A DNA stretch of 44,572 bases, from the NCBI GenBank assembly GCA_017453325.1, contig JAFTKK010000062.1, forward strand, positions 1 to 44,572, in the 5' to 3' direction. Of the stretch, positions 5,403 through 44,572 are shown one piece after another; position 1 is the first letter of the stretch, and the number at the start of each line of letters is the position of its first letter. Under the pieces are notes generated by a model. That model worked only from the letters and a program-made list of their open reading frames with translations, was not told where the DNA came from and ran no database searches. Source of the stretch: Clostridia bacterium (GTDB lineage: Bacteria > Bacillota > Clostridia > Oscillospirales > CAG-272). Position numbers and translations under genes: made by a program.

Positions 5403-5449
5403 TGTATTTGTACTATAATAAGGTAAGCGACACTTACCGCACATATACA

Positions 5450-5612
5450 GATAGCTCTCCATCAAAGTTTGACGACAGTTCCACAGCTTTGAACCGTGCG
5501 AACCAGCAGGCCATGTACCGCCATGACCCACTTCGGCACTCTGCGCTCCCGACGGGGGCTCAAACGGCCGCGGCGGCCTTACCCCTGCGAGGTCACAATG
5601 TGCGCCTCTATC
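5450..5612 (-). ncRNA. Lysine riboswitch (L box) aptamer
   Basis: The minus strand shows the conserved L-box layout. P1 is GATAG (5612-5608) with CTATC (5454-5450), followed by AGGCGCAC as the J1/2 core. Near the middle comes GGGAGCGCAGAGTGCCGAAG, matching the family's GGGGAGCG...GCCGAAG core. Then come GCTGGTTCGCACGG, GGAACTGTCGTC and GATGGAGAGCTATC at the 3' end. The length of about 163 bases is normal. It lies in front of dapA-dapB and between a promoter (5653-5681) and a terminator (5379-5402), so lysine binding should terminate transcription. Confidence 0.93.
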
Positions 5613-5652
5613 ATTATATTATGTTTTCCCGACCTGTTTGGTCTTCTTTTTC

Positions 5653-5722: not shown

Positions 5723-6802
5723 ATGTCCGAAGTTATTGTCAACAAAAAAGTAAAAACAGACCTGAAAACCGCCGATTTTTACTACGATCTGCCCGAGGAG
5801 CTGATCGCGCAGCACCCGATGGAGCGCCGCGACGCCTCCCGTCTGATGGTGCTTGACCGCGCCGCGGGCACGCTCACGCATCGGCATTTTTATGATATTG
5901 TAGATTACTTAAATCCCGGTGACGTGCTGGTCGTCAACGATTCCAAGGTCATTCCCGCCCGCCTTTACGGCCACGTGGAGGGCAGACCCGAGGCAAAGAT
6001 GGAGCTGCTTTTGCTCCGTCAGCGCGAACTCGATACGTGGGAAACGCTGGTCAAGCCCGGCAAGCGTGCCCGCGTGGGGGCACGTCTTGTGTTCGGCGAC
6101 GGGATCCTCACCGCAACGGTGACAGAGATCACCGCAGAGGGAAACCGACTGATTGCATTCGATTATGACCGTGAGCGGTATGCAAATATCTATGATATTC
6201 TGCATCAGATTGGTCTGATGCCCCTGCCGCCCTATATTACCGAGCGCCTTGCCGATAACAGCCGCTATCAAACGGTTTACGCAAGGGAGGAGGGCTCGGC
6301 TGCCGCACCGACGGCGGGGCTGCATTTCACCCCCGAATTGCTGGACCGTGTGCGTGCCAAGGGCGTGGCCATTGCGCCCGTGATGCTGCACGTGGGCCTG
6401 GGGACTTTCCGCCCCGTGAAGGTGGATAAATTGGACGAGCACGTTATGCACACCGAGTTTATTTCGGTCAGCGAGGAGAGCGCCGCGCTGATCAACGCGC
6501 GCCGCGCCGCAGGCGGCCGTGTGGTGGCGGTGGGTACCACCTCCTGCCGCACGCTCGAAAGCGTGACCGACGAAGCGGGCATTGTGCACCCCGTTTGCGG
6601 GGATACCGGCATTTTTATCTACCCCGGCTACAAATTTAAGGCCGTGGATGCCCTCATCACCAATTTCCATCTGCCCGAAAGCACGCTGGTGATGCTGGTC
6701 TCCGCCTTTTACAACCGCGAGGCCGTATTGGGTGCTTATGAAACGGCAGTGAAGGAGAAATACCGCTTTTTCTCCTTTGGCGACGCGATGTTGATTGTAT
6801 AA
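5723..6802 (+). CDS. queA: S-adenosylmethionine:tRNA ribosyltransferase-isomerase
   Basis: Transfers and isomerises the ribosyl part of S-adenosylmethionine onto preQ1-modified tRNA to make epoxyqueuosine, in the queuosine pathway. 359 residues, slightly longer than average because of about ten extra N-terminal residues. [27 protein letters not shown] near the N-terminus, [14 protein letters not shown] near the middle (about 193-206) and [11 protein letters not shown] are family hallmarks. ATG at 5723 follows GAAAGGAAG. It is divergent from dapA. The last codons (D-A-M-L-I-V-stop) are repeated in slightly altered form 164 bases downstream, beyond a palindromic repeat. Confidence 0.97.
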
Positions 6803-28531: not shown

Positions 28532-28558
28532 CTTATACTCTTGCGGGGATGCCCGCTT
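28532..28558. repeat. 27-base direct repeat, native copy at the hisF stop
   Basis: Covers the hisF C-terminal codons (A-G-I-P-A-R-V-stop) on the minus strand. It is exactly repeated at 28410-28436, 122 bases further along. Confidence 0.9.
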
Positions 28559-29291
28559 TTTTCATAGCAGCCTTGAGGTCGCTGATCTTGACCTCACCGA
28601 AGTGGAAGATCGAGGCGGCGAGCCCCGCGTCAACCCCCGGCAGGGTATGGAAGAGCGTGATAAAGTCCTCGATCTTGCCCGCGCCGCCCGAGGCGATCAC
28701 GGGGACGTTCACCACACGGCAAACGGCATCAAGCATCTCAAGGTCGAAGCCCTTTTTCACGCCGTCGGTGTCGATCGAGTTGAGTACGACCTCGCCCGCG
28801 CCGCGCTCGACGCATTGCTTGATCCAGGAAATGGCCTCCATGCCCGTGTTTTCTCTGCCACCCTTGGCAAATACACGGAATACGCCGTCCACGCGCTTGA
28901 CGTCTGCGGAAATGACGACGCATTGGTCGCCGTAGCGCTTGGCGGCCTCGGTGATAAGGGCGGGGTTGCGGATGGCACCCGAATTGACGCTGACCTTGTC
29001 GGCACCGCACTTGAGCACGCGGTCAAAATCCTCTAAGGTATTGATGCCGCCGCCAACCGTCAGCGGGATAAAGATCTTGCTTGCCACCTCGGTTAAAATA
29101 TCGGTAAACAGGCGTCTGCCCTCGGCGGAGGCGGTGATATCGTAAAATACCAGCTCGTCAGCGCCGTGCTCACTGTAATAGCGAGCCAGCTCCACAGGGG
29201 AGGAAACGTCGGAAAGTCCTTCAAAATTCACACCCTTGACCACGCGTCCGTCGCGCACGTCAAGGCAGGGGATAATACGCTTGGTAATCAT
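28533..29291 (-). CDS. hisF: Imidazole glycerol phosphate synthase cyclase subunit
   Basis: Cyclase half of the HisHF complex, using ammonia from HisH to form imidazole glycerol phosphate and AICAR. 252 residues, a TIM barrel. Catalytic Asp11 lies in CLDVRDGRVVKG and Asp in NSIDTDGVKKG (about 130). FYDITAS and ASGGAG are phosphate-site motifs. ATG overlaps the hisA stop by four bases. Its 3' end is the source of a 27-base duplication located downstream of an inserted palindromic repeat. Confidence 0.98.
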   Translation of the reverse strand: MITKRIIPCLDVRDGRVVKGVNFEGLSDVSSPVELARYYSEHGADELVFYDITASAEGRRLFTDILTEVASKIFIPLTVGGGINTLEDFDRVLKCGADKVSVNSGAIRNPALITEAAKRYGDQCVVISADVKRVDGVFRVFAKGGRENTGMEAISWIKQCVERGAGEVVLNSIDTDGVKKGFDLEMLDAVCRVVNVPVIASGGAGKIEDFITLFHTLPGVDAGLAASIFHFGEVKISDLKAAMKKAGIPARV

Positions 29292-30004
29292 TTGGCGGCC
29301 TCCTTGATGGCTTCTTTCAGATCAATGGCGCCCGTGTAGTAGGCCTTGCCGATGATGGCGCCGTAAAGCTCCATCGCTGCCAGCTTTTCCACGTCCTCCA
29401 TCGTGGATACGCCGCCCGAGGCCACGATCTGCATGCCGAAGCGACGGGAGAGCTCGCGGTAAAGCGCATGGTTGGCACCGCGCATGGCGCCGTCGCGCGA
29501 GATATCGGTGCAAATGAGCGTTTTTACGCCCCATTCCTGCAGCTTTTCGCAAAAATCAAAGGCATCAAGCTCGGATTTTTCGGTCCAGCCCTTAACGGCC
29601 ACAAAGCCGTCCTTAATATCCACACCAACGGCAATGCGCGCACCGTGTTTGGCAACGGCCTCCCGCAAAAACGCGGGGTCGCTGACGGCTGCCGTACCGA
29701 GAATGACGCGGTCAAGCCCTGCCTCCATATAGCGGTCAACCACGGCCATGCTGCGCACGCCGCCGCCGATCTCGCAAAACAGTCCGCACTCTTTTTTGAT
29801 GCGGCATACCACGTCAAGGTTTGGAGTATTGCCGTCGCGCGCGCCCTCCAGGTCAACCAGATGCACGTGCGTGGCACCTGCCGCCGCGAAATCTTGCGCG
29901 ACAGAAACGGGATCGGTGCTATACACCGTCATTTGGGCGTAATCGCCCTTGTAAAGGCGCACGGCCTTGCCTTCATATAAGTCAATTGCGGGGAAGATCA
30001 GCAT
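29288..30004 (-). CDS. hisA: 1-(5-phosphoribosyl)-5-[(5-phosphoribosylamino)methylideneamino]imidazole-4-carboxamide isomerase
   Basis: Amadori isomerase of histidine synthesis (ProFAR isomerase), 238 residues, a TIM barrel related to HisF. Catalytic Asp8 in AIDLYEGKAVRLYKGDY and Asp in ICTDISRDGAMRG (about 128). LVDLEGARDG and ASGGVS are further barrel-motif sites. Overlaps hisH upstream by seven bases and hisF downstream by four. Confidence 0.98.
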   Translation of the reverse strand: MLIFPAIDLYEGKAVRLYKGDYAQMTVYSTDPVSVAQDFAAAGATHVHLVDLEGARDGNTPNLDVVCRIKKECGLFCEIGGGVRSMAVVDRYMEAGLDRVILGTAAVSDPAFLREAVAKHGARIAVGVDIKDGFVAVKGWTEKSELDAFDFCEKLQEWGVKTLICTDISRDGAMRGANHALYRELSRRFGMQIVASGGVSTMEDVEKLAAMELYGAIIGKAYYTGAIDLKEAIKEAAK

Positions 30005-30624
30005 ACGTTGCCCTCCATTTCACAAAAGGCGCGCAGGATCGCGAGCCCCGCGTTGCCGCTTTTTTCGGGGTGGAACTGGCAGCCCATCACGTTGCCGCGG
30101 GCAACGGCGGCCGTCAGCGGTGCGCCGTATTCCGCCGTGGCGATCACGGCCTCCTCGCAGCGCGCACCGTAATAGGAGTGCACGAAATATACGCAATCCC
30201 CGTCCTTTAAATATTTGAAAAGCGGATGCTTGGTCTTGCCAAAGGAAAGGGCATTCCAGCCGATGTGGGGGATTTTCAGCCCTGCGGGGATCACGTCGGC
30301 AATGGGGCGGATCTCGCCCGCGATGAGGCCAAGCCCCTGGTGCTCGCCGTATTCAAAGCTTTTTTCAAGAAGAAGCTGCATACCGAGGCAAATACCCATC
30401 ACGGGCTTGCCTGCGGCTGCCACCTGTGAAACGACCTTGTCAAGGCCCGTCGCGCGCAGCTTGGCGGCAGCATCACCGAAGGCACCGACGCCGGGGAGTA
30501 TCACGCGGTCTGCCGCGCGGATGGCCTCGGGGTCAGCCGTGACCGCAGCCTCGGCGCCAATGGCGGCAAGAGAGCTTTTGAGGGAAAAGAGGTTGCCCAC
30601 ACCGTAGTCAATAATCGCTACCAT
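29998..30624 (-). CDS. hisH: Imidazole glycerol phosphate synthase glutaminase subunit
   Basis: Class I glutamine amidotransferase that supplies ammonia to HisF; 208 residues. The catalytic triad is visible: Cys79 in GICLGMQLL, and His185 and Glu187 in GCQFHPEKSG. The oxyanion/glycine region is PGVGAFGD at 44-51. The start shares its first base with the hisB stop, so translation is coupled. The order hisB-hisH-hisA-hisF is standard. Confidence 0.98.
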   Translation of the reverse strand: MVAIIDYGVGNLFSLKSSLAAIGAEAAVTADPEAIRAADRVILPGVGAFGDAAAKLRATGLDKVVSQVAAAGKPVMGICLGMQLLLEKSFEYGEHQGLGLIAGEIRPIADVIPAGLKIPHIGWNALSFGKTKHPLFKYLKDGDCVYFVHSYYGARCEEAVIATAEYGAPLTAAVARGNVMGCQFHPEKSGNAGLAILRAFCEMEGNVC

Positions 30625-31211
30625 CAGAGAACCTCTTTCGTGGAGAGGACGGTACCCGAGAGGGAGCTGTCCTCCGAGAGAGCCTTTTTCATGCTGTGTG
30701 CCACCGATTTGAAGATGCCCTCAATGATGTGGTGGGTGTTGTTGCCCGCAAGCTGGCCGATGTGGAGCGTGAGCTTTGCCTCGCGCACAAAGGCGAGCCA
30801 AAATTCCTCCACCAGCTCGGTATCAAAGGTACCGACCTGCGCCGTGGGCATTTCGGCATCGTATCCAAGGTAAGCGCGACCCGAAAGGTCAACGGCAGAG
30901 AGAATGAGCGCCTCATCCATCGGCAGGATCATATAGCCGTAACGGGCAAGACCCTTTTTGTCGCCTGCCAGCTCAGCCACGGCGCGACCGAGGCAAATTC
31001 CGATATCCTCGGTGGTGTGGTGTGCATCTACCGCAAGGTCGCCCTTACAGGTGAGCGTGAGGTCAAAGCCGCCGTGACGGGTAAAGAGCGTGAGCATATG
31101 GTCAAGAAAGCCGCAGCCCGTGTCGATCTTCGCCACGCCCGTACCGCGGGTGAGGGTGAGACTGATATCGGTTTCGGCGGTTTTTCTGTTAATTACAGCA
31201 GTTTGTTTCAT
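30624..31211 (-). CDS. hisB: Imidazoleglycerol-phosphate dehydratase
   Basis: Dehydrates imidazole glycerol phosphate; 195 residues, monofunctional, with no fused histidinol-phosphatase. Metal-binding His-rich motifs are DHMLTLFTRHGGFDL (about 37-51), DAHHTTEDIG (about 62-71) and a second similar set at about 160-172 (HIGQLAGNNTHHIIEGIFK). GGAGTAACAC precedes ATG; the gap to hisC is three bases. Confidence 0.98.
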   Translation of the reverse strand: MKQTAVINRKTAETDISLTLTRGTGVAKIDTGCGFLDHMLTLFTRHGGFDLTLTCKGDLAVDAHHTTEDIGICLGRAVAELAGDKKGLARYGYMILPMDEALILSAVDLSGRAYLGYDAEMPTAQVGTFDTELVEEFWLAFVREAKLTLHIGQLAGNNTHHIIEGIFKSVAHSMKKALSEDSSLSGTVLSTKEVL

Positions 31212-31214
31212 GTG

Positions 31215-32273
31215 TTACTCCTTTACGATCTCGGCAAGCGCCGCCACGAGCGCCGCCATTTCCTCGGCGGTGCCGACCGTGATGCGATTATAGTCGGCAA
31301 TGGGGGCCTTGTCGAAGTGGCGCACCAGAATACCGCGCTCGCGCAGGGCGCTGTAAACGGCCTTGCCGCCCACGCGCGGGTGACGGATAAAGAGGAAATT
31401 GCCAAGAGAATCGGTCATCTCAAAACCGAGCTTTTTCAGCTCCGTTTTGGCACTTTCTCGGTTTTTGATGATGGTTTTGCAGTTTTGCTGCGTGTAGGCC
31501 TCGTCGGCCATGACGCCAAGTCCCGCTGCCGCCGACATACTGTTGACGTTATAAGGGTTGGTGGAATATTTGATGGTGTTGAGGTCCCCGATCAGCTCCT
31601 TGCAGCCCACGCCGTAGCCAAGGCGTGCGCCCGCCATGGAGCGCGACTTCGAGAAGGTGCGCGTGACGAGCAGATTGCCGTACTTGTGCACCAGAGGTAC
31701 CGCCGTTTGGCCGCCGAAATCCACGTAGGCCTCGTCTACCACCACCACGCGGTCGGGGTTGCTTTGCAGCAGCTCCTCGATCTCACCGAGCGTGAGGGCA
31801 AGCCCCGTGGGGGCATTCGGATTGGCGATAAAAAGCGTGCCGCTTGCGCGCTTTAGTGCCGCTACGTCCACCGAAAAATCCTCTTTGAGGGGAATTTCGG
31901 TATAGGGGATATGGTTCAGGGTCGCAAATACGCTGTAAAAGCCGTAGGTGATATTGGGAAATACGGCGGGGCATTGCTCGTCGCAAAATGCCATAAAGGC
32001 GAAATTCAAGATCTCGTCCGAGCCGTTGGTGAGCAGCACCTCGTCGGGGGCAAGGCCGTGATAATCGGCCACGGCGGTGTGCAGCGCCCGATAGGTGGGG
32101 TCGGGGTAGAGCTGCAGCCGCTCTGCCGCCTCGGCTGCAGCCGCGATGGCCTTGGGCGAGGGGGGGAAGGGTGCTTCGTTGGTGTTCAGCTTGATGTATT
32201 TTTTGTCACGCGGCTGCTCGCCCGGGGTGTAAGGGGTGAGCGTGCTGTAACGGTTGGTAAAAAACTTGCTCAT
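31215..32273 (-). CDS. hisC: Histidinol-phosphate aminotransferase
   Basis: PLP aminotransferase converting imidazole acetol phosphate to histidinol phosphate; 352 residues, fold type I. PLP-lysine Lys209 lies in RTFSKSRSMAGARLGYG. The Asp of VVVVDEAYVDF (180) and LNTNEAPFPPSP (29-40) are hallmarks, and a phosphate-binding Arg is in the C-terminal part (FLFIRHPRVGG). ATG follows CAAGGAGAACCT. The 39-base gap to hisD holds a short GGGAT...ATCCC hairpin without a T-run. Confidence 0.96.
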   Translation of the reverse strand: MSKFFTNRYSTLTPYTPGEQPRDKKYIKLNTNEAPFPPSPKAIAAAAEAAERLQLYPDPTYRALHTAVADYHGLAPDEVLLTNGSDEILNFAFMAFCDEQCPAVFPNITYGFYSVFATLNHIPYTEIPLKEDFSVDVAALKRASGTLFIANPNAPTGLALTLGEIEELLQSNPDRVVVVDEAYVDFGGQTAVPLVHKYGNLLVTRTFSKSRSMAGARLGYGVGCKELIGDLNTIKYSTNPYNVNSMSAAAGLGVMADEAYTQQNCKTIIKNRESAKTELKKLGFEMTDSLGNFLFIRHPRVGGKAVYSALRERGILVRHFDKAPIADYNRITVGTAEEMAALVAALAEIVKE

Positions 32274-32312
32274 AGGTTCTCCTTGGTGGGATACGGCATC
32301 CCGTTATGGGGG

Positions 32313-33590
32313 TTATTGCTCTTCGAGGCGGATGGTGGCGCTTCTCGCGTGGGCGTCAAGCCCCTCCTTGCCCGCAAAGTAGGCTACGTCCTTTGCCACA
32401 CGGGCAAAGGCCTCCTTGGTGTAATAGGTGTACTGCGCTTTCTTGATGAAATCGTCAACCGACAAGGGATTTGAGAAGCGCGCCGTGCCGCTGGTGGGCA
32501 GGGTGTGGTTGGGGCCTGCAAAATAGTCACCCAGCGCCTCGGGGCAATATTTGCCCATAAAGATCGAGCCCGCGTGGCGGATGGCGTCAAGATAATCAAA
32601 GGGATTGTCCACGGCGAGCTCTAAGTGCTCGGGGGCAAGCTCGTTGGCCACGTCAATGGCCGTCTCCAGATTTTGCACCACGATGATCTTGCCGTTTTTG
32701 TCGATTGAGGCACGCGCGATCTCGGCGCGCGGCAGCAGGGGGAGCTGCTTTTCCAGCTCGGCGCTCACCTCTTCGGCGAGTGTGCGACTGTCGGTGATGA
32801 GAACGGCAGAGGCGAGCTTGTCGTGCTCGGCCTGCGAGAGCAGGTCCGCGGCAACGAAGGCGGGGTTGGCGGTACTGTCCGCCACCACCAGAATTTCACT
32901 CGGCCCCGCGATCATATCAATGGAAACGGTGCCGAAAACCTGCTTTTTGGCCTCTGCCACAAAGGCGTTGCCGGGGCCCACGATCTTATCCACGCGCGGT
33001 ACGCTTTCGGTGCCGTAAGCGAGGGCGGCAATGGCCTGTGCGCCGCCCACCTTAAAGATGCGGTCAATGCCTGCGATCTCGGCGGCAGCGAGGATCACGG
33101 GATTTACCTTGCCATCCTTGCCGGGAGGGGTGAGCATCACGACCTCGCGGCAGCCCGCGAGCTTGGCGGGAATGGCGTCCATGAGGACCGTGGAGGGATA
33201 GGCGGCGGTGCCGCCGGGCACGTAAAGACCTGCGCGGTCAATGGGAATGATCTTTTGTCCCACCACCACGCCGCGCTCCTCGTTGATGATGAAGCTGTTG
33301 CGTACCTGGCGCTCGTGATAGCGGCGGATATTGTCTGCCGCGCGGCGCAGCACGTCAAGGAAAGCGGGCTCAACGAGGGCAAGCGCCTCGGCGCGCTCCT
33401 CGGGGGTCACGGCAAGGCTTTTTAGTGTGGCCTTGTCGAATTTTTCGGTATAGGCAAAAAGTGCCTTGTCGCCGTCTTTTCTCACGGTGGTAATGATATC
33501 GGCCACGATGTCGGCCACGTTCACCTCGGGCACGACACGGGCAAAGATCTCGCTGTTCGGCACCTCGCCGTAGGTTAAAATACTGATCAT
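32313..33590 (-). CDS. hisD: Histidinol dehydrogenase
   Basis: Zinc-dependent, NAD-linked oxidation of histidinol to histidine, the last pathway step; 425 residues. The zinc-site QAEHDKLASA (about 248-257) and the catalytic Glu-His in ELAPEHLEL (about 319-327) are present, as are PGGTAAYPSTVLM, GPGNAFVAEAKKQVFG, DMIAGPSEI and GPNHTLPTSGTARF. The start overlaps the hisG stop by four bases. Length and motifs are complete. Confidence 0.98.
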   Translation of the reverse strand: MISILTYGEVPNSEIFARVVPEVNVADIVADIITTVRKDGDKALFAYTEKFDKATLKSLAVTPEERAEALALVEPAFLDVLRRAADNIRRYHERQVRNSFIINEERGVVVGQKIIPIDRAGLYVPGGTAAYPSTVLMDAIPAKLAGCREVVMLTPPGKDGKVNPVILAAAEIAGIDRIFKVGGAQAIAALAYGTESVPRVDKIVGPGNAFVAEAKKQVFGTVSIDMIAGPSEILVVADSTANPAFVAADLLSQAEHDKLASAVLITDSRTLAEEVSAELEKQLPLLPRAEIARASIDKNGKIIVVQNLETAIDVANELAPEHLELAVDNPFDYLDAIRHAGSIFMGKYCPEALGDYFAGPNHTLPTSGTARFSNPLSVDDFIKKAQYTYYTKEAFARVAKDVAYFAGKEGLDAHARSATIRLEEQ

Positions 33591-34225
33591 GCTTTTGTCT
33601 CCACTTGCGCGGCAATTCCGCGCACAATTTCTTCTATGGTTGCGTTCTTGAATTTAAAGCCCGCCTTGTTGGCGATCAGACGCGCGCTGATCGGCACCAC
33701 CGTGGCAAAGACCTCTAAGTTGTTTTCGCGTAAGGTCGTGCCGGTTTCCACAATATCCACGATCACGTCGGAAAGGCCGATGATGGGGGCAATCTCAATG
33801 CTGCCGTTCAGATGGATGATGTCGATGTCGCGCCCTTGCGCGTCGTAATAATTCTTGGCAATGCGCGAGAATTTGGTGGCCACGCGCAGGGTGCGGCGCG
33901 GGTCGTCGTGAAAATCACGGGGAGCAGCCACGGCCATGCGGCATTTGCCGAGCTGCAGGTCAAGCAGCTCGTAAACGTCGGGCAGGTATTCCAGCAAAAT
34001 ATCCTTGCCCGCCACGCCGATATCGGCCACGCCGCGCTCGACGTAGATCGGCACGTCCGAGGGCTTGGCCCAGAAAAAGCGCAGCCCCAGCTCCTCGTTT
34101 TCGAAGATCAGCTTGCGGTTGTCCTCATGAATGGCAGGGCAGGGGAAGCCCGCCTTTTCAAACATGGCGTATACCTTTTCGCCAAGGCGTCCCTTGGGCA
34201 GGGCAATGTTAAGCATTTGCTTCAC
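33587..34225 (-). CDS. hisG: ATP phosphoribosyltransferase catalytic subunit (short form)
   Basis: First step of histidine synthesis, joining ATP and PRPP. The short form of 212 residues lacks the C-terminal regulatory domain and needs HisZ, which is encoded just upstream. NIALPKGRLGEKV (about 6-18), GVADIGVAGKDILLEY and the PRPP-binding loop IVDIVETGTTLRENNLEV are present. GTG 34225 is favoured by AGGAGG nine bases before it; an ATG three codons on overlaps the hisZ stop. Confidence 0.97.
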   Translation of the reverse strand: MKQMLNIALPKGRLGEKVYAMFEKAGFPCPAIHEDNRKLIFENEELGLRFFWAKPSDVPIYVERGVADIGVAGKDILLEYLPDVYELLDLQLGKCRMAVAAPRDFHDDPRRTLRVATKFSRIAKNYYDAQGRDIDIIHLNGSIEIAPIIGLSDVIVDIVETGTTLRENNLEVFATVVPISARLIANKAGFKFKNATIEEIVRGIAAQVETKA

Positions 34226-35330
34226 GGAGCGTGCCCTCCTTTCCGTCGAATATCAATGCCGTGCGGTAGCGCAGCTTTTCGGGCAGCGTGCGGAGCGCAA
34301 GCGTGCTTTTGCCCGACGCGCGCAGCGCGGCAACGGCCTCGGCCAAGGTGGCGGGGGTGACCCCGTCGTCATAAAGCACCACGGTATCCACGTCAAAGCT
34401 CATGTCGGTCTCGTGCAGGCGCTCAAGCGCATCAAGATACACGGCAAAGCCGATGGCGTTCTCGCTCTTACCCATTTTGCGCATCAGGCCGTTATATTCA
34501 CCGCCCGAAAGCAGGCTTTCGGGTACGCCCGCCACAAAGCCCTTGAAAACAAGACCGTTGTAATAGCCGATGTCGCCGACCACCGAGAAATCCACGCGCA
34601 CGATCTCGCCTGCGGGCGAGGCGGCAAGGGCGGTAAGCAGATCGGAAAATTCCGTGAGGATCCCATCTGCTACCACACCGCGCAGCAGGGGCAGCAGCAC
34701 GGGCAGCACGTCGCCGGGGGCACCGTAGGAGGAGATCAGCTGCCCAAGGAGCGCGATCTTATCGGCATCCACGCCCGCAGCGGTGGCAATGCTTGTCATT
34801 TCGTGCAGGTTCTTCTCGCCGATGCAGCTGAGCAGCGCGCGGCGCGTATCGGGGGTTACCGAAAGCGTATCGAGCACCGCCGATACGATACCGAGGTGCG
34901 ACACGTCGAGCACGGCGTGCTCGGAAATGGCAGCGAGGCTCGCGGCAGCCAGCGTCAGCACCTCGAACAGGCAGTAAGCATCCACCTCGCCGATGCACTC
35001 AAGGCCGACCTGCATGATCTCGCGAAAGGCGTGCGTGCGCCCCGAAACGCGATAGACGTTTTCCTGGTAGTAGACCTTTTCCACGCCACCCGTGCGGCGG
35101 CCGTTTTTGATGATGGAGAGGGTCACATCGGGCTTTAAGGCCAGCAGCTTGCCGCTGGTATCGGTAAAGGTGATGACATTGTCGGAGATGAGGAAGTCCT
35201 TGTTTTGCACGTAAAGGTCGTATTCCTCAAATTTGTTCATTTTATATTGCGTGTAGCCGTAGCTGTGATACAGGGCGCGCAGCGCAAGGGCGGCGCGCTC
35301 GTCACCTTGCAGGATCATATCGGTATTCAT
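34209..35330 (-). CDS. hisZ: ATP phosphoribosyltransferase regulatory subunit
   Basis: HisRS-like protein without tRNA charging activity that activates short HisG and mediates histidine feedback; 373 residues. Class II synthetase-like motifs are ALKPDVTLSIIKN (about 63-75), YYQENVYRV...REIMQVGLECIG (about 86-113) and GYYNGLVFKGF...LLSGGEYNGLM (about 250-280). The anticodon-binding domain of true HisRS is missing. ATG 35330 follows AAGGACGCCAC and overlaps the yerC stop (ATGA). It lies directly ahead of hisG, supporting the heteromeric enzyme. Confidence 0.96.
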   Translation of the reverse strand: MNTDMILQGDERAALALRALYHSYGYTQYKMNKFEEYDLYVQNKDFLISDNVITFTDTSGKLLALKPDVTLSIIKNGRRTGGVEKVYYQENVYRVSGRTHAFREIMQVGLECIGEVDAYCLFEVLTLAAASLAAISEHAVLDVSHLGIVSAVLDTLSVTPDTRRALLSCIGEKNLHEMTSIATAAGVDADKIALLGQLISSYGAPGDVLPVLLPLLRGVVADGILTEFSDLLTALAASPAGEIVRVDFSVVGDIGYYNGLVFKGFVAGVPESLLSGGEYNGLMRKMGKSENAIGFAVYLDALERLHETDMSFDVDTVVLYDDGVTPATLAEAVAALRASGKSTLALRTLPEKLRYRTALIFDGKEGTLREANA

Positions 35331-35626
35331 GTGGCGTCCTTCTCCTCGCTGAGTTTTTTCAGCATGGTGCTGTAACCGCCGCTGCCGTAGTTGAGGCACT
35401 TATTGACGCGGCTGATGGTGGCCGTGCTGGCACCCGTGAGGGTGGAAATGACCTGATAATTTTTGCCCATCGAAAGATACATGGCCACGTCAAGGCGCTG
35501 GGCGATCTCGCGCACCTCCTTGACGGTGCAAACATCCTCGAAGAAATTGTAGCATTCCTCCATGCTTTCAAGCTTCAGAATGGCTGTAAACAGTCGGTCA
35601 AGGGATTCGTTTTTCATATCAAGCAT
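35327..35626 (-). CDS. yerC: YerC/YecD family TrpR-like repressor
   Basis: 99-residue DNA-binding protein of the TrpR fold. The helical core has LDRLFTAILKLESMEECYNFFEDVCTVKEV (about 9-38), then the helix-turn-helix AQRLDVAMYLSMGKNYQVISTLTGASTATISRVNKCLNYGSGGY (about 42-85). ATG 35626 fits the GGAG nine bases upstream better than a second ATG three codons on. It is the first gene of the his operon. TrpR-like YerC proteins have been proposed as histidine regulators in Firmicutes. A palindrome inside its own promoter (35669-35686) suggests autoregulation; the effector is inferred, not seen. Confidence 0.9.
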   Translation of the reverse strand: MLDMKNESLDRLFTAILKLESMEECYNFFEDVCTVKEVREIAQRLDVAMYLSMGKNYQVISTLTGASTATISRVNKCLNYGSGGYSTMLKKLSEEKDAT

Positions 35627-35660
35627 CAAAAAAGTCTCCTGTTCCTTGAAATACCTACAC

Positions 35661-35689
35661 ATTTTAACACTTTACCATGCTAAAGTCAA
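35661..35689 (-). promoter_or_regulatory. Promoter of the yerC-his operon
   Basis: On the minus strand TTGACT (35684-35689) and TAAAAT (35661-35666) are separated by 17 bases. The start codon of yerC is about 35 bases from the -10. Confidence 0.87.
35669..35686. promoter_or_regulatory. Candidate YerC operator inside the his promoter
   Basis: ACTTTACCATGCTAAAGT is an 18-base palindrome with one mismatched pair. It fills the spacer between -35 and -10 and touches the -35. A dimeric TrpR-like repressor is encoded by the first gene downstream. Binding there would block polymerase. Confidence 0.6.
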
Positions 35690-36033: not shown

Positions 36034-36062
36034 TTGACACCATACAGTCTCCGTGCTATAAT
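36034..36062 (+). promoter_or_regulatory. Strong sigma-A promoter of the ilv-leu operon
   Basis: Perfect TTGACA (36034-36039) and TATAAT (36057-36062) with a 17-base spacer. The expected start near 36069 gives a leader of about 300 bases before ilvB. Confidence 0.95.
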
Positions 36063-36095
36063 AGCAACATATTATTATTCAACGCGAGGTGCAAC

Positions 36096-36230
36096 ATGGC
36101 TTATATCGCTTCTTCTATCAGCGTAGCCATTATAAGCGCTATTCTAGGTCTAATCGTGCTCGTCAAGGAGTCTGACCTGAATAGTGCTGAAAGTTGCGCC
36201 AAGATTTGCAAAACCGCAAGCATCTGCTGA
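36096..36230 (+). CDS. Branched-chain amino acid leader peptide (ilvL-like)
   Basis: 44-residue peptide with GAGGTG six bases before ATG. Its first half, IASSISVAIISAILGLIVLV (residues 4-23), holds twelve Ile/Val/Leu codons in 20 positions. Several are codons that look rare in neighbouring genes (CTA twice, ATA, GTA). This resembles the enterobacterial ilvL peptide. The RNA it is read from can form a pause hairpin across the control codons, an antiterminator and a terminator (described separately). It lies wholly between a strong promoter and ilvB. The peptide could instead be a small membrane protein, but the RNA architecture argues for a regulatory leader. An upstream in-frame start at 36027 lies before the promoter and is rejected. 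Confidence 0.85.
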   Translation: MAYIASSISVAIISAILGLIVLVKESDLNSAESCAKICKTASIC

Positions 36231-36328
36231 CCTGAGGCTTCTCTCATTTTCAAGGATGTAGTGAAACCCGACCGGCGATTGCGCGTTGTAAAGATTTGAA
36301 ATGCAAACCTTACGGTCTGAACTTTCAG
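36135..36328 (+). promoter_or_regulatory. Transcription attenuator: pause hairpin and antiterminator of the ilv leader
   Basis: Pause stem: 36135-36144 (AGCGCTATTC) with 36179-36188 (GAATAGTGCT), ten pairs with one G-U, continued by AGGTC (36146-36150) with GACCT (36174-36178). Its 5' strand consists of the control codons. Antiterminator: CTGAAAGTT (36187-36195) with AACTTTCAG (36320-36328), nine perfect pairs, plus 36201-36210 with 36302-36311 (nine of ten), nested correctly. A ribosome stalled on Ile/Val/Leu codons would open the pause stem and free the antiterminator strand, which then disables the terminator at 36305-36347. Confidence 0.82.
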
Positions 36329-36347
36329 AACGTAAGGTTTTTATTTT
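36305..36347 (+). terminator. Attenuator terminator before ilvB
   Basis: AAACCTTACG (36305-36314) pairs with CGTAAGGTTT (36331-36340), then a G-A mismatch and TCTGA/TCAGA around an ACTT loop, followed by TTATTTT. It ends just before the ilvB ribosome site and overlaps both halves of the antiterminator. Confidence 0.92.
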
Positions 36348-36368
36348 CCCAAAGGAGGGCAAGAAGAT

Positions 36369-38078
36369 ATGAAATTAACGGGCGCACAAATTCTGATGGA
36401 ATGTTTGCTCGAACAGGAAGTGGATACCGTATTCGGTTATCCGGGCGGTACGATCTTAAATGTGTATGATGCACTTTACCGCTACAACGACAAGATCAAG
36501 CACGTGCTGACCGCACACGAGCAGGGAGCTGCACACGCAGCCGACGGCTATGCACGCAGCACGGGCAAGGTGGGCGTTTGCTTTGCCACCTCCGGCCCCG
36601 GTGCCACCAACCTGACAACAGGTATTGCCACCGCACACATGGATAGCTCCCCCGTGGTGTTTATCTCCTGCAACGTGGCGCGCAACCTCATTGGTAAGGA
36701 TTCCTTCCAGGAGGTGGATATCACGGGTATTACCATGCCCATTACCAAGTGCAACTATATCGTGGACAGCGTGGAGAAGCTGGCCGACACCGTGCGTGCC
36801 GCCTTTGCCATTGCCAAGAGCGGTCGTCCCGGCCCTGTGTTTATCGATATTTTAAAGAATGCCACGGGCGAAAAGGCAGAGTTCAAGCCCTTGCCGCAGG
36901 CTGAGCACTACACCGAGGGCAAGCTTGGCGCCATGATGCGCCGATCCTCGCAGGACTTCAAGGCACCCGAGGTGGATGAGAAGGATCTCAAGACGCTGGT
37001 GGATATGATCAACGCCTCCAAAAAGCCGCTTCTCATTTGCGGCGGCGGCGTGGTGCGCGGCAGAGCGCATCAGGAGTTTTTGGAGTTTGCCGAGAAGGTG
37101 GATGCTCCCGTTGCCATTACCCTGATGGGTGCGGGCGGCATTTGCGGCAGAAATCCGCTGGCCACGGGTATGATCGGCATGCACGGCACGCAGGCCTCCA
37201 ACATGGCGTGTGACGCGTGCGACCTGCTGATCTCGGTGGGCTGCCGCTTCTCCGACCGCGTGGCGCTTGCCCCCAAGACCTTTGCAAAGCAGGCCAAGAT
37301 CGTGCACATCGACATTGACCGTGCCGAGATCAACAAGAACGTACATACCGACCATCACATCGTGGGCGACGCCAAGCGCGTGCTGGCAAAGCTCAACGAA
37401 ATGGTGCAGCCTGCCGATCACAGCGATTGGAAGAAATACGTGTTCTCGTTTAAGACCGAGACCGAGTATGACGATATTGACGACGCGCTCACGCCCAAGC
37501 AGATCCTTTCCTCCATTGCGAAGATGCTGCCGGAGGATACCGTGGTCGCCACCGACGTCGGTCAGCACCAGATGTGGTCGATCCAGCACTTCCGCTTTGA
37601 TTATCCCGGTCAGCTCCTGACCTCGGGCGGCTTCGGTACCATGGGCTTCGGCCTCGGTGCCGCCATCGGCGCCAAGGTCGGCAACCCCGACAAGACCGTG
37701 ATCCACATCACGGGTGACGGCAGCTTCCGCATGAACTGCAACGAGCTTGCCACCGTGCAGGATTACGGCGTGCCGATCATCACCTTTGTCTTTAACAACA
37801 AGACCCTCGGCATGGTGCGCCAATGGCAGACCCTTATTTACGACAAGCGCTATTCCGAAACGACGCTCTCCGAGCGCGGCCCCGATTTTGTGGCTCTGGC
37901 GAAGGCGTACGGCCTTGGCGGCGCACACGTATCGAACGTGGCAGAGCTGGAGGCCGCCATTGAGGAGGCCATGAAGTGCGGCCACGGCTACATCATCGAC
38001 TGTGCCATTGATATGGACGAGAAGGTACGTCCCATGGTTGGCGGCGGCTCCCACATCACCGATTTCTTGCTGAGCTGA
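36369..38078 (+). CDS. ilvB: Acetolactate synthase large (catalytic) subunit
   Basis: TPP-dependent enzyme making acetolactate or acetohydroxybutyrate, the first common step for Val/Leu/Ile; 569 residues. Catalytic Glu51 lies in TAHEQGAAHAADGYAR. The central FAD/ADP-fold domain is at about 190-340. The C-terminal TPP motif is GDGSFRMNCNELATVQDYG with the following Asn of FVFNN as metal ligand; GFGTMGFGLGAAIGAK precedes it. AAAGGAGGG lies ten bases before ATG. It heads the ilv-leu operon behind the leader-peptide attenuator. ilvN follows after 14 bases. Confidence 0.98.
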   Translation: MKLTGAQILMECLLEQEVDTVFGYPGGTILNVYDALYRYNDKIKHVLTAHEQGAAHAADGYARSTGKVGVCFATSGPGATNLTTGIATAHMDSSPVVFISCNVARNLIGKDSFQEVDITGITMPITKCNYIVDSVEKLADTVRAAFAIAKSGRPGPVFIDILKNATGEKAEFKPLPQAEHYTEGKLGAMMRRSSQDFKAPEVDEKDLKTLVDMINASKKPLLICGGGVVRGRAHQEFLEFAEKVDAPVAITLMGAGGICGRNPLATGMIGMHGTQASNMACDACDLLISVGCRFSDRVALAPKTFAKQAKIVHIDIDRAEINKNVHTDHHIVGDAKRVLAKLNEMVQPADHSDWKKYVFSFKTETEYDDIDDALTPKQILSSIAKMLPEDTVVATDVGQHQMWSIQHFRFDYPGQLLTSGGFGTMGFGLGAAIGAKVGNPDKTVIHITGDGSFRMNCNELATVQDYGVPIITFVFNNKTLGMVRQWQTLIYDKRYSETTLSERGPDFVALAKAYGLGGAHVSNVAELEAAIEEAMKCGHGYIIDCAIDMDEKVRPMVGGGSHITDFLLS

Positions 38079-38092
38079 AAGGAGGAAAAGAT

Positions 38093-39647
<1,555 letters not shown>

Positions 39648-39649
39648 GA

Positions 39650-39782
39650 CGGGCATATTTTGCGCCTAAGTCTCCCCCTCGCGGCTCCGCGTAGTTACTA
39701 CGCGCGACGCCGCGAGGTGAAGCCTTATGCATCAAAATCTGCGCCGTCTCGGGCATATTTGCGCCTAAGTCTCCCCCCTCGC
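39650..39782 (+). repeat. Direct repeats and large hairpin between ilvC and ilvD
   Basis: Two 33-base near-identical copies (39650-39682 and 39750-39782) start CGGGCATATTT and end CCCCCTCGC; they differ only in T-run and C-run length. Between them lies a strong hairpin: CCTCGCGGC (39677-39685) with GCCGCGAGG (39709-39717), and an inner CGCGTAG-TTA-CTACGCG. The region from 39783 to the ilvD ribosome site shows nothing else. Confidence 0.8.
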
Positions 39783-39881
39783 CAGGCTTTTTCTCGCAAT
39801 ACCATTTGTATGCAGGTGGTCTTCCGAGAGAAAGTCTGCTCTGCTTATCTCTTATCAAATCACCCTCACGGAGGTTTACAT

Positions 39882-41546
39882 ATGAATTCCGATCAGATCA
39901 AACTGGGTGTGGAACGCACCCCCAATCGCAGCCTGTTGTATGCGCTCGGTTATACCGACGAGGAGCTGGCCCGTCCGCTTGTCGGCGTGGTGAGCTCGCA
40001 CAACGAGATCGTGCCCGGCCATATGCATCTTGACAAGATCACCGAGGCCGTAAAGGCAGGCATCCGTGCCGCAGGCGGCACGCCCGTGATGTTTCCCGCC
40101 ATTGCCGTTTGTGACGGCATTGCCATGGGTCACGTGGGCATGAAATATTCGCTCGTTACGCGCGACCTGATTGCCGATTCCACCGAGGCTATGGTGACGG
40201 CGCATCAGTTTGACGGCTTGGTGATGATCCCCAACTGTGACAAAAACGTGCCCGGCCTTTTGATGGCGGCGGCACGTCTCAATATCCCCACCATCTTTTG
40301 CTCGGGCGGCCCCATGCTGGCAGGCCGCTTGCAGGATGGCCGACGCACCTGCCTTAGCCACATGTTTGAGGCGGTTGGCGCTTATAAGGCGGGCACGCTT
40401 GACGAAGCGGGCGTGGCCGACTATACCGAAAACGCTTGCCCCAGCTGCGGCTCCTGCTCGGGCATGTACACCGCCAACTCGATGAACTGCCTCACCGAGG
40501 CCATCGGCATGGCGCTTGCCGGCAACGGCACCGTACCCGCACCCCTTTCGGCACGCATTCGCCTTGCCAAGCACGCAGGCATGAAGATCATGGAGCTGAT
40601 CGAAAAGAACATCCGTCCCCGCGATATCATGACCGAGGCGGCCTTTCACAATGCCGAGACCGTGGATATGGCGCTCGGCTGCTCCACCAACACCATGCTG
40701 CATCTGCCCGCCATTGCGCACGAGGCAGGCGTGGAGATCAGCCTGGATATGTCCAACGCCATCAGCCAAAAAACGCCCAACCTTTGTCATCTTGCCCCTG
40801 CGGGTGACACCTTTATGGAGGATCTTGACCGTGCGGGCGGCGTATGGGCCGTGATGAAGGAGCTGACGAAGAAAAACTTGCTTGACACCTCGGTGATGAC
40901 GGTGACGGGCAAGACCTTGGCGGAAAATCTTGCGGGTGTTGTGAACCGCGACCCCGAGATCATTCGCCCGATTGAAAATCCCTACTCCGAGAACGGCGGC
41001 ATTGCCGTCCTCAAGGGCAACCTTGCCCCCGACGGCTGCGTGGTGAAGCAATCCGCCGTGGCACCCGAAATGATGGTGCACGAGGGCCCCGCGAGAGTCT
41101 TTGACTCCGAGGAGGAGGCCATTACCGCCATTTACGCGGGCAAGATCGTGGCAGGTGACGTGGTGGTCATTCGTTACGAGGGCCCCAAGGGCGGCCCCGG
41201 CATGCGTGAGATGCTCAATCCCACCTCTGCCATTTGCGGCATGGGTCTTGGTGAGAGCGTGGCGCTCATTACCGACGGACGCTTTTCGGGTGCCACCCGC
41301 GGCGCGGCCATCGGTCACGTGAGCCCCGAGGCGGCTGCAGGCGGCAACATTGCGCTGGTCAAAGAGGGCGATGTGATTGCCATCAACATCAAAGAATGCA
41401 GTGTCACGCTGCGCGTTTCCGACGAGGAGCTGGCCGCACGCCGCGCGGCGTGGGTAGCCCCCGAGCCCAAGGTGAAAACGGGATATCTTGCGCGCTACGC
41501 AAAGCTTGTTTCCTCTGCCGACAAGGGCGCTATTTTAACTGTTTGA
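39882..41546 (+). CDS. ilvD: Dihydroxy-acid dehydratase
   Basis: Iron-sulfur dehydratase giving the 2-keto acids of Val and Ile; 554 residues, normal length. Cluster and metal motifs are [19 protein letters not shown] (about 114-132) and [21 protein letters not shown] (about 187-207). [20 protein letters not shown] near the C-terminus is conserved. The start at 39882 ([19 protein letters not shown]) follows CGGAGG; the longer in-frame reading upstream runs through the intergenic repeat and is rejected. Confidence 0.98.
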
Positions 41547-41565: not shown

Positions 41566-43107
41566 ATGGATCGTGTAAAAATATTTGACACTACCCTGCG
41601 CGACGGCGAGCAATCTCCCGGCTGCAGCATGAACCTTGCCGAAAAGATCGAGGTAGCAAAGCAGCTTGAGCTGATGAAGGTTGACGTGATCGAAGCGGGC
41701 TTTGCCATCTCCTCCCCCGGTGACTTTGAGTCGGTACAGTCGATTGCCAAGGCAGTGAAAAACTGCAGCGTGGCCTCGCTTGCCCGTTCCACCGTCAAGG
41801 ATATTGACGCCGCTTGGGAGGCCGTGAAGGTGGCGGCTGACCCGCGTATTCACCTGTTTATTGCCACCTCGCCCCTGCACATGGAATACAAGCTGCGCAT
41901 GACGCCCGAGCAGGTTCTCGAAAAGACCGCCGCCATGGTATCCTATGCGCGCAAATACTGCTCGAACATCGAGTTTTCCGCCGAGGATGCCACGCGCTCC
42001 GATTGGGAGTTCTTGGCCAAGGTCGTCAACACGGCCATTGACAACGGCGCGACTGTGATCAACCTGCCCGACACCGTCGGCTACACCACGCCGAATGAGA
42101 TGCGCGCGCTGATCGAATATATGGTAAAGAACACCAATTATGCGGGGCGTGCCGAGTTCTCTGTGCATTGCCACAATGACCTCGGTATGGCAGTTGCCAA
42201 TTCCTTGGCAGGTGTGCTCGGTGGTGCACGCCAGATCGAGTGTACCGTCAACGGTCTTGGCGAGCGCGCGGGCAACACCGCGCTTGAAGAGGTCGTGATG
42301 GCGCTGCATACCCGCCCCGATCTTTACGGTGTCAGCACGGGGATTGAGACCACCCGCATCTCCCGCGCCAGCAAGACCGTTTATAATATCATCGGTCAGA
42401 ATGCGCCGCTTAACAAGCCCATCGTCGGCAAAAACGCCTTTTTGCACGAGTCGGGCATTCACCAGCACGGCGTGCTGGCCAACAAGCAGACCTACGAGAT
42501 CCTGACCCCCGAATCTGTGGGCATCAAGGCAAACAATATCGTGCTCGGCAAGCATTCGGGCAAGCACGCGTTTGAAACGCGCCTCTCGGAGCTCGGCTAT
42601 CACCTCTCGGCAGAGGAGCTGCTCTCCTGCTTTGAGGATTTCAAGGTGCTGTGCGACAAGAAAAAGACCATCAACGACGAGGATATCGAGGCCATCGTGC
42701 TGCACAAGACCACGGTGGGCGATATGCCCGAGGATGCAGGCTACAAGCTTGACCGCTTTGTAGTGCACACCAGCAACTTTACCACCTCCACCAGCACCGT
42801 GGTGCTGACGAAGGATGGCGAGAAGTTTGAGGAGGTCAGTCTTGGTGACGGCCCGATCGATGCTTCCTTTAAGGCCATTGATAAGATCATCAACCCCGAG
42901 GAGCACACCTTCAAGACCTACACCATCCACTCGATCTCCGAGGGCAAGGATACCCTCGGTGACGTTACCGTGCGCCTCGCCGCAGGTAATCGCACCTATA
43001 CGGGCAAGGGCCTTTCCACCGATATCATCGAGGCATCGATCCTTGCTTATATCAATGCCATCAATAAAATGCAATATGCCATGGAGCAAATGAAGGGGGC
43101 AGAATAA
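41566..43107 (+). CDS. leuA: 2-isopropylmalate synthase
   Basis: Condenses acetyl-CoA and 2-oxoisovalerate, the committed step to leucine; 513 residues. The catalytic barrel (about 3-270) has [14 protein letters not shown] (metal/Arg site), the metal histidines in [16 protein letters not shown] (about 200-215) and [18 protein letters not shown]. Then come [11 protein letters not shown] and the C-terminal LeuA dimer domain (about 370-505), which normally binds leucine for feedback. GAGAGGAGTTCCAC precedes ATG. A closely related function such as citramalate synthase is unlikely, given the leuCD neighbours. Confidence 0.96.
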
Positions 43108-43108
43108 C

Positions 43109-44374
43109 ATGGGCATGACAATGACACAAAAAATTCTGGCCGCGCACGCAGGCCTCGCCTCGGTACAGGCGGGCGACCTCATTGAGGCAAAGCTCGATAT
43201 CGTGCTCGGCAACGACGTCACCACCCCCGTGGCGGTTGACGTGTTTGACAAGGCGGGCTTTACCCGCGTATTTGATAAGGACAAGATCGCCATCGTGCTT
43301 GACCACTACACGCCCTGCAAGGATGTCAAATCCGCAGAGCTCTGCGCCACGGCAAGAGGCTTTGCCAAGCGCTTTGACATCACGCACTTTTATGACGTGG
43401 GTGCTGTGGGCATCGAGCACGCGCTCCTGCCCGAAAAGGGCATTGTGGGCCCCGGTGACTGCATCATCGGTGCCGATTCGCACACCTGCACCTATGGCGC
43501 GCTGGGCGCCTTCTCCACGGGTGTCGGCTCGACGGATATGGCCGCAGGCATGGCAACGGGCGAGAACTGGTTTAAGGTGCCCTCCGCCATTAAGGTGGTC
43601 TTGAAGGGCAAGCTGCAGCCCTTTGTCAGCGGTAAGGACGTGATCCTGCATCTCATCGGCCGCATCGGCGTGGACGGTGCGCTTTACAAGTCGCTTGAGT
43701 TTGTGGGAGAGGGTGTGAAGGCCCTTTCGATGGACGACCGCTTCTCGATTGCCAACATGGCTATTGAGGCCGGCGCCAAAAACGGCATTTTCCCCGTGGA
43801 CGAGCAAACCATGGATTACATCAAGGGTCGCTTTACGCGCCCCGTTCGGGTATTTGAGGCCGATGCAGATGCCGTTTACGAGAGCGAGGTCGTCATCGAC
43901 CTTGATACCCTCGCACCTACGGTATCCTTGCCGCACCTGCCCTCCAACACCAAAACCGTGGATGAGGTCAAGGGTCTGCCCATTGATCAGGTCGTGATCG
44001 GCTCCTGCACCAACGGTCGCATCGGTGACCTGCGAGCCGCCGCCGCGATCCTCAAGGGCAAAAAGGTGGCAAAGGGTGTGCGCTGCATCGTCATTCCCGC
44101 CACCGAGGAGGTCTACCTCCAGTCGATCAAGGAGGGGCTGACCGAGATCTTCATTGAGGCCGGCTGTGCCGTCTCCACCCCCACCTGCGGCCCCTGCCTT
44201 GGCGGTCATATGGGCTGCATGGCAGCAGGCGAGCGTGCCGTTGCCACGACCAACCGTAACTTTGTCGGCCGCATGGGTCACGTCAAGAGTGAAGTGATCC
44301 TTGCGAGCCCTGCCGTTGCCGCCGCCTCTGCCGTAAGTGGCGCCGTGGCATCGCCTTATGATATGGAGGTGTAA
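43109..44374 (+). CDS. leuC: 3-isopropylmalate dehydratase large subunit
   Basis: Aconitase-family isomerase of leucine synthesis, 421 residues, the shorter bacterial/archaeal-like LeuC form. Cluster cysteines are Cys300 (GSCTNGR), Cys360 and Cys363 ([11 protein letters not shown]). [33 protein letters not shown] and [10 protein letters not shown] are family signatures. ATG 43109 is two bases after leuA with GGGGG before it. It works with LeuD, whose start is three bases after this stop. Confidence 0.97.
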
Positions 44375-44376
44375 GC

Positions 44377-44572
44377 ATGTATCAGGGAACAGTATTTAAA
44401 TACGGTGATAATGTTGATACCGACGTGATCATCCCCGCGCGCTACTTGAACGCCCCCTCCGCTGCCGAGCTTGCCAAGCATTGCATGGAGGATATTGATC
44501 TTGATTTCGTGAAGGAGGTCAAGGCGGGCGATATCATGGTGGGCGGCGAGAACTTCGGCTGCGGCTCCTCCC
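44377..44572 (+). CDS. leuD: 3-isopropylmalate dehydratase small subunit (partial, cut by window end)
   Basis: The first 65 codons are present and the reading frame is open to the window edge. [20 protein letters not shown] and GENFGCGSS are the typical N-terminal part and swivel-loop motif of LeuD. GGAGGTGTAAGC precedes ATG. The rest lies beyond the window; leuB would be expected near but is not seen. Confidence 0.96.

Follow-up and report, generated by a model that had tools for sequence, protein, structure and literature searches.

In Clostridia the charging of tRNA is commonly described as being sensed by T-boxes, and the branched-chain amino-acid operon studied here raises the question of whether its supply is instead read by a ribosome translating a short leader ORF. 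The window, by which we mean the whole stretch of 44,572 nucleotides that was analysed, carries such an ORF, followed by an intrinsic terminator, between a promoter and ilvB. We regard it as very probable that this locus is a ribosome-mediated transcription attenuator. An Ile/Val/Leu leader-peptide attenuator had been proposed in a sequence-only reading of the window, and that proposal is now supported by stems which are conserved and co-vary in relatives and by a scan which found no T-box upstream.

Operon, leader ORF and competing RNA structures

The genes downstream of the leader lie on the forward strand and were identified by NCBIfam as ilvB (acetolactate synthase large subunit, 36369-38078, TIGR00118), ilvN (acetolactate synthase small subunit, 38093-38647, NF008864), ilvC (38622-39647, NF004017; ORF bounds, the true start being probably later), ilvD (39660-41546, NF002068; ORF bounds, the match starting at residue 74), leuA (41566-43107, NF002086) and leuC (43109-44374, TIGR02083), the six complete genes in the order first read from the sequence. 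An ORF start on the same strand (44377-44572), truncated by the window edge, is presumably leuD. Divergent from ilvB, an apparent histidine operon occupies 28533-35662 on the reverse strand, with a YerC/YecD TrpR-like protein and a HisZ-like protein followed by histidinol dehydrogenase, an aminotransferase and a glutamine amidotransferase. Elsewhere in the window a lysine riboswitch aptamer (RF00168, 62.7 bits) lies on the reverse strand at 5444-5618, and the ORF of a queuosine-synthesis protein begins at 5723 on the opposite strand to it.

Transcription of the leader can be assigned to a sigma-70-type promoter on the forward strand at 36034-36062, in which TTGACA and TATAAT are separated by 17 nt, a TG stands ahead of the -10 box and 12 of 12 consensus positions match; a similar promoter was seen by eye in the same position in relatives from the genus. 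A ribosome-binding site at 36086-36095 (+), which takes part in the MFE fold and has GAGG(T) immediately 5' of the ATG, precedes a putatively translated leader ORF of 44 codons (36096-36230, +), read from the sequence and with homologous ORFs in relatives. The encoded peptide is MAYIASSISVAIISAILGLIVLVKESDLNSAESCAKICKTASIC. Leader codons 4-23 are the control codons and comprise six Ile, three Leu (two of them CTA) and three Val codons. When both strands of the window were scanned for ATG ORFs of 20-60 codons, 197 were obtained, of which the leader ORF alone reached an Ile/Leu/Val density of 9 in 12 or 12 in 20 codons; for 12 in 20 at one place a plain binomial gives 0.0008, with an Ile/Leu/Val share of 24.6% taken from 16 window ORFs. 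An early threshold of 7 in 12 was not stringent alone, being reached by 32 of 181 open pieces (all six frames of 25 segments, leader frames included).

Attenuators are expected to use rare control codons. CTA, whose use the sequence-only reading had proposed to count, makes up two of the four Leu codons in the leader and is rare in the 16 window ORFs (3 of 626 Leu codons), ten of which have a family match while six were chosen on length alone. In the leaders of 25 representatives CTA accounts for 36 of 123 Leu codons, with the background codon use known for the window ORFs alone.

The MFE of the RNA from 36067 to 36350 was -94.7 kcal/mol (z -5.46), and none of 200 shuffles was equally stable. 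The fold contains a leader (pause, or 1:2) hairpin whose 5' arm (36135-36150, +) is composed of control codons and whose 3' arm lies at 36174-36188 (+), both arms being backed by pair counts from 40 sequences; the hairpin is within reach of a ribosome stalled on those codons, which would be expected to block it. It also contains an intrinsic terminator hairpin with a U tract at 36305-36347 (+), between the leader ORF and the first gene, which was found by script as well. The antiterminator, located by duplex prediction and by co-variation, joins a 5' strand within the leader ORF (36187-36210, +; segments 36187-36195 and 36198-36210) to a 3' strand (36302-36328, +) formed by the 5' arm of the terminator, its loop and the top of its 3' arm. 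The predicted duplex pairs 36187-36195 with 36320-36328, 36198-36203 with 36309-36311 and 36314-36316, and 36205-36210 with 36302-36307. This pairing occupies the terminator's own arm and loop and so excludes it. The perfect promoter, the 44-codon ORF with its ribosome site and twelve Ile/Val/Leu codons in 20, the pause hairpin built on those codons and the terminator had all been claimed from the letters of the sequence and are present as described; both antiterminator segments claimed there were likewise recovered, with a GCC/GGU block in addition.

The leader hairpin and the antiterminator have only 2 nt in common, an overlap too small for the hairpin by itself to exclude the antiterminator. 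A further helix in the MFE fold pairs the ribosome-binding site GGUGCAAC with GUUGCGCC (36193-36200); in it 36088-36095 GGTGCAAC is pairable with 36193-36200 GTTGCGCC. This helix, itself weakly supported, overlaps the antiterminator strand more than the hairpin does.

Distribution of the leader in related genomes

Leader DNA was matched in 10 of 21 genomes of the genus and in 12 of 395 genomes of the family, two of the latter matches spanning only 34-59 bases. An IlvB at least 73% identical was found in 29 family genomes, and the leader was read upstream of it in 10 of 10 cases in the source genus, five in g31, one in g5 and three in g3; none was seen upstream of closely related IlvB in g27 (six loci) or g32 (two loci), and two further g32 loci, L127 and L129, lie at contig edges with unreadable leaders. 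Six further genomes of the source genus have distant IlvB only (best E 1e-157 to 1e-165) and no model match. Given these patterns, the leader accompanies one type of IlvB and is absent from part of the genus. The g27 loci (L120, L122, L123, L125, L126, L128) have promoter-like sequence by eye and no such leader peptide, and the attenuator may have been lost or replaced there.

Twenty-five leaders read upstream of ilvB were used to build a covariance model, R1, of 115 positions with 10 base pairs. It matched 31 of 395 family genomes (in 7 of 71 genera), 17 of 394 order genomes with E up to 0.01, one of these being judged false, and 4 of 381 class genomes; the three samples overlap, the source genome is counted in each, and the searches ran on Infernal's stricter filters, so that weak matches were lost. 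The 16 order matches kept span seven families and the class matches add two. The false match, L148, has no short leader ORF and carries a long ORF which we take to encode an ACT-domain protein. Eight loci added later (L169, L171-L177) enter only the family scan and the last locus reading, and one match without a locus (G146) is outside the matches read.

In 25 of the 26 new matches read, the next gene downstream is IlvB- or LeuA-like (order 14/15, class 3/3, family 8/8), and for these 26 the gene context is independent of the model, whereas it is built in for the 25 model-building leaders. Over all 43 leaders the next gene is IlvB in 39 and LeuA-like in four. When R1 was run on 78 of the 80 IlvB loci from named genomes (L034 and L035 have hardly any sequence upstream and were omitted here and from the T-box pattern count below), seven matches were returned, six being model-building leaders; the seventh, L058, precedes a second IlvB-like gene. 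The gene that follows the leader in L058 (leader at 2494-2616) and in L143 encodes a diverged IlvB-like protein sharing about 40% identity with the window's IlvB. In L150, L151 and L152, from two other families of the class, the leader precedes proteins only about 30% identical to LeuA, which may be citramalate, homocitrate or related synthases. Brachyspira pilosicoli (L090) has a short Ile/Leu-rich ORF some 190 nt upstream of ilvB with no R1 match, perhaps a separate attenuator. We conclude that the leader represents a genuine RNA family of an already known mechanistic type; Rfam 15 does not contain it, and the samples searched place it in at least nine families.

Co-variation of the stems and alternative explanations

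For the antiterminator a 75% identity limit left 25 of the 43 leaders, three of them from the source genus, and the 16 nt after the hairpin were paired with the terminator window, the terminators being permuted between leaders. Mean duplex energy was -13.16 kcal/mol with the leader's own terminator vs -9.56 kcal/mol (sd 0.45) with permuted ones, a z of -8.06 that was reached in 0 of 20,000 permutations; with 28 nt the z was -8.62, and two control strands from the same RNAs gave 0.28 and -0.22. The own terminator was the single best partner in 7 of 25 leaders and among the top three in 16. The terminator window supersedes an earlier test against a 210-nt downstream stretch including coding sequence (z -4.89, 0/20,000). 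In the source leader the strand CTGAAAGTT pairs with AACTTTCAG, in L118 CTAAAAGTT with AACTTTTAG, in L137 GTTAATGTT with AACATTAAC and in L142 CAATTAGTC with GACTGATTG. Set individually against shuffled strands, 16 of the 25 antiterminators fall at 5% or below, the weakest being L147, L144 and L143.

The leader hairpin co-varies as well. With 40 sequences aligned to R1, 92.2% of cells are paired vs 84.3% in shuffles, a count which is flattered by an alignment fitted to the structure and by 25 of the 40 sequences having built R1; both sides have changed in 7 of the 10 pairs, and on any of five measures the observed value was reached by 0 of 500 shuffles. Sliding the partners by 1-3 columns reduced pairing to 29-55%. 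Conservation of the leader ORF and stems in close relatives, on which the sequence-only reading depended, is thus what was found.

Three leaders speak for the RNA, and not the peptide, being what is kept. In L024 and L150 the stop codon starts 7 and 9 nt ahead of the antiterminator strand, and both this strand and the hairpin arm are kept; the RNA is therefore kept even where it is untranslated. In L112 an AGT to GGT change alters the residue and preserves pairing with its own terminator through a G-U pair.

We looked at the ribosome-binding-site helix in the same way, though it was picked for testing only after the fold had been seen. In the ten leaders of the source genus it is strong, at -11.2 to -15.1 kcal/mol, as it is in certain distant leaders (e.g. 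L024, L084), and in others it is weak. Its co-variation is weak (z -2.80, 61 of 20,000 permutations), and with the own partner best in 2 of 25 and among the top three in 5 of 25 we dropped the idea of a universal helix. We treat it as a lineage-specific addition.

A leader acting mainly as a translation-dependent transcript switch, through Rho or mRNA decay and not via its intrinsic terminator, might be suggested by the ability of the antiterminator strand to pair with the ribosome-binding site of the leader itself. We hold this to be very unlikely, as 41 of 43 leaders carry a hairpin followed by a T tract (detected by a script run without a null) and the terminator co-varies with the leader strand.

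Control of the terminator by a T-box or a metabolite riboswitch (e.g. for ppGpp), with the ORF being incidental, is in our judgement extremely unlikely. T-boxes do precede ilvB in some relatives: the core motif was present by pattern in 5 of 78 ilvB loci with enough upstream sequence, and when four of these five were scanned with Rfam, L031 and L083 were over the cut-off and L033 and L081 below it. The source genome itself has six T-box matches elsewhere, three of them over the cut-off, near ORFs which we take to be tyrS, a sodium-solute symporter, aspS, trpB, pheS and cysE-cysS. At the leader, however, none of the 4227 models of Rfam 15 matched at gathering score, a search with E up to 10 returned just seven matches, all below 17 bits and to unrelated families, and the T-box covariance model (RF00230) had no match; the sequence-only reading had staked its case on there being no T-box upstream. 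Eighteen loci carrying related leaders likewise had no Rfam match at E up to 0.1, nor had the leaders of seven more loci at gathering scores, while a stretch with at least six Ile/Leu/Val residues within some 12 codons was present in 43 of 43 measured leaders. The spacer at 36231-36300 has a riboswitch-like appearance, and this candidate was dropped for want of Rfam support.

We give as little credence to the ORF being a functional small hydrophobic protein ahead of an ordinary terminator: many relatives share a similar C-terminal part (SAESCA-like) of this hydrophobic peptide, but that part overlies the strands of the antiterminator and the hairpin, the antiterminator strand persists past the stop codon in L024 and L150, pairing outlasts the altered residue of L112, and the peptide has no NCBIfam match up to E 10.

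Proposed mechanism and relation to known systems

As a ribosome-mediated attenuator the locus would work as follows. Transcription would start just 3' of the promoter at 36034-36062, and a ribosome would translate the leader ORF behind RNA polymerase. When charged Ile-, Leu- or Val-tRNA is scarce, this ribosome would stall on the control codons at 36105-36164 and block the leader hairpin, leaving 36187-36210 free to capture the emerging 5' arm and loop of the terminator (36302-36328) before the 3' arm is complete; with the antiterminator formed, transcription would proceed into ilvB-N-C-D-leuA-C. Under an ample supply of these amino acids, the ribosome would cross 36187-36210 and then leave, after which the hairpin and the helix 36088-36095/36193-36200 would close over the strand and the terminator would form.

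Timing is central to such a scheme. In an equilibrium fold from which the stretch held by the stalled ribosome was omitted, the terminator still forms and the antiterminator has a pair probability of about 1e-4; since equilibrium favours the terminator in the complete RNA, the attenuation model needs kinetic capture. The 3' strand of the antiterminator ends 7-18 nt (median 11) before the end of the terminator stem in the 25 representatives, which makes such capture possible, though unproven.

The release state is less simple than was first thought. The stop codon of the source leader lies 41 nt beyond the start of the antiterminator strand (-9 to +65 across 43 leaders), so that a terminating ribosome would hardly cover the strand, and with an overlap of only 2 nt between hairpin and antiterminator another cover would be needed after the ribosome exits. 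The earlier proposal had release relying on the pause hairpin reforming; the ribosome-binding-site helix may contribute as well. A trade-off between stop-codon distance and the strength of this helix was sought among the 25 representatives and dropped (Spearman -0.17, p 0.41).

We would put forward only tentatively, and as something more doubtful than likely, that the leader is an old attenuator family which came by common descent to at least nine Clostridia families, with its antiterminator strand inside the ORF and, in the source genus, pairing with the ribosome-binding site. If so, completed translation would shut off antitermination and re-initiation in one fold. A genome with T-box matches elsewhere appears to sense the supply for its Ile/Val/Leu operon by translation, and related lineages share the sensor; this makes the locus suited to asking why both sensing strategies would be employed in a single lineage, and how roughly a hundred bases can encode control codons together with RNA structures that compete. 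The R1 model and alignment can be used for annotating branched-chain amino-acid control in such genomes.

The mechanism is classical. Enterobacterial ilv and leu operons have the ribosome-mediated attenuators ivbL, ilvL and leuL. The source leader resembles these in its Ile/Val/Leu-rich peptide, pause hairpin, antiterminator, intrinsic terminator and rare Leu codons, a likeness of architecture, and it differs in having an ORF that spans both the hairpin and the antiterminator strand. In some relatives a T-box (RF00230) stands upstream of ilvB and likewise senses tRNA charging; it binds tRNA directly and translation is not needed.

The earlier view of this attenuator as poorly described agrees with what was found: it has no Rfam match, and in the open-licence literature, taken without supplements, we recognised no description of an ilv leader-peptide attenuator in Clostridia, although one may exist elsewhere; the available portions of PMC8632094, PMC11109978 and PMC6429828 describe no such motif. 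His leader peptides have been reported in Bacilli (PMC2965389), and predictions in Lactococcus, Corynebacterium and Streptococcus are cited by PMC5794164. The Corynebacterium ilvB-II, ilvB-OMG and Leptospira ilvB motifs carry uORFs (PMC10272879) and are like the source leader in having an Ile/Leu/Val-rich uORF upstream of ilvB. The Corynebacterium uORF usually has 15-17 residues (PMC10272879) vs 44 codons here, and whichever of these motifs Rfam holds, no Rfam family matched the source leader.

Precedents among the Firmicutes exist in Listeria and Staphylococcus. Listeria Rli60 is a mutation-tested ribosome-mediated attenuator of ilv-leu (PMC5864092), like the source leader in mechanism and in its Firmicute host and set apart, by its description, as a 13-residue peptide upstream of ilvD. 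In S. aureus the ilv operon has a leucine-rich attenuator peptide (PMC5794164); there too an Ile/Leu-rich leader peptide and a terminator stand upstream of an ilv-leu operon, whereas the leader lies ahead of ilvD and the proposed antiterminator pairs with the U tract, and not, as in the source leader, with the arm and loop of the terminator.
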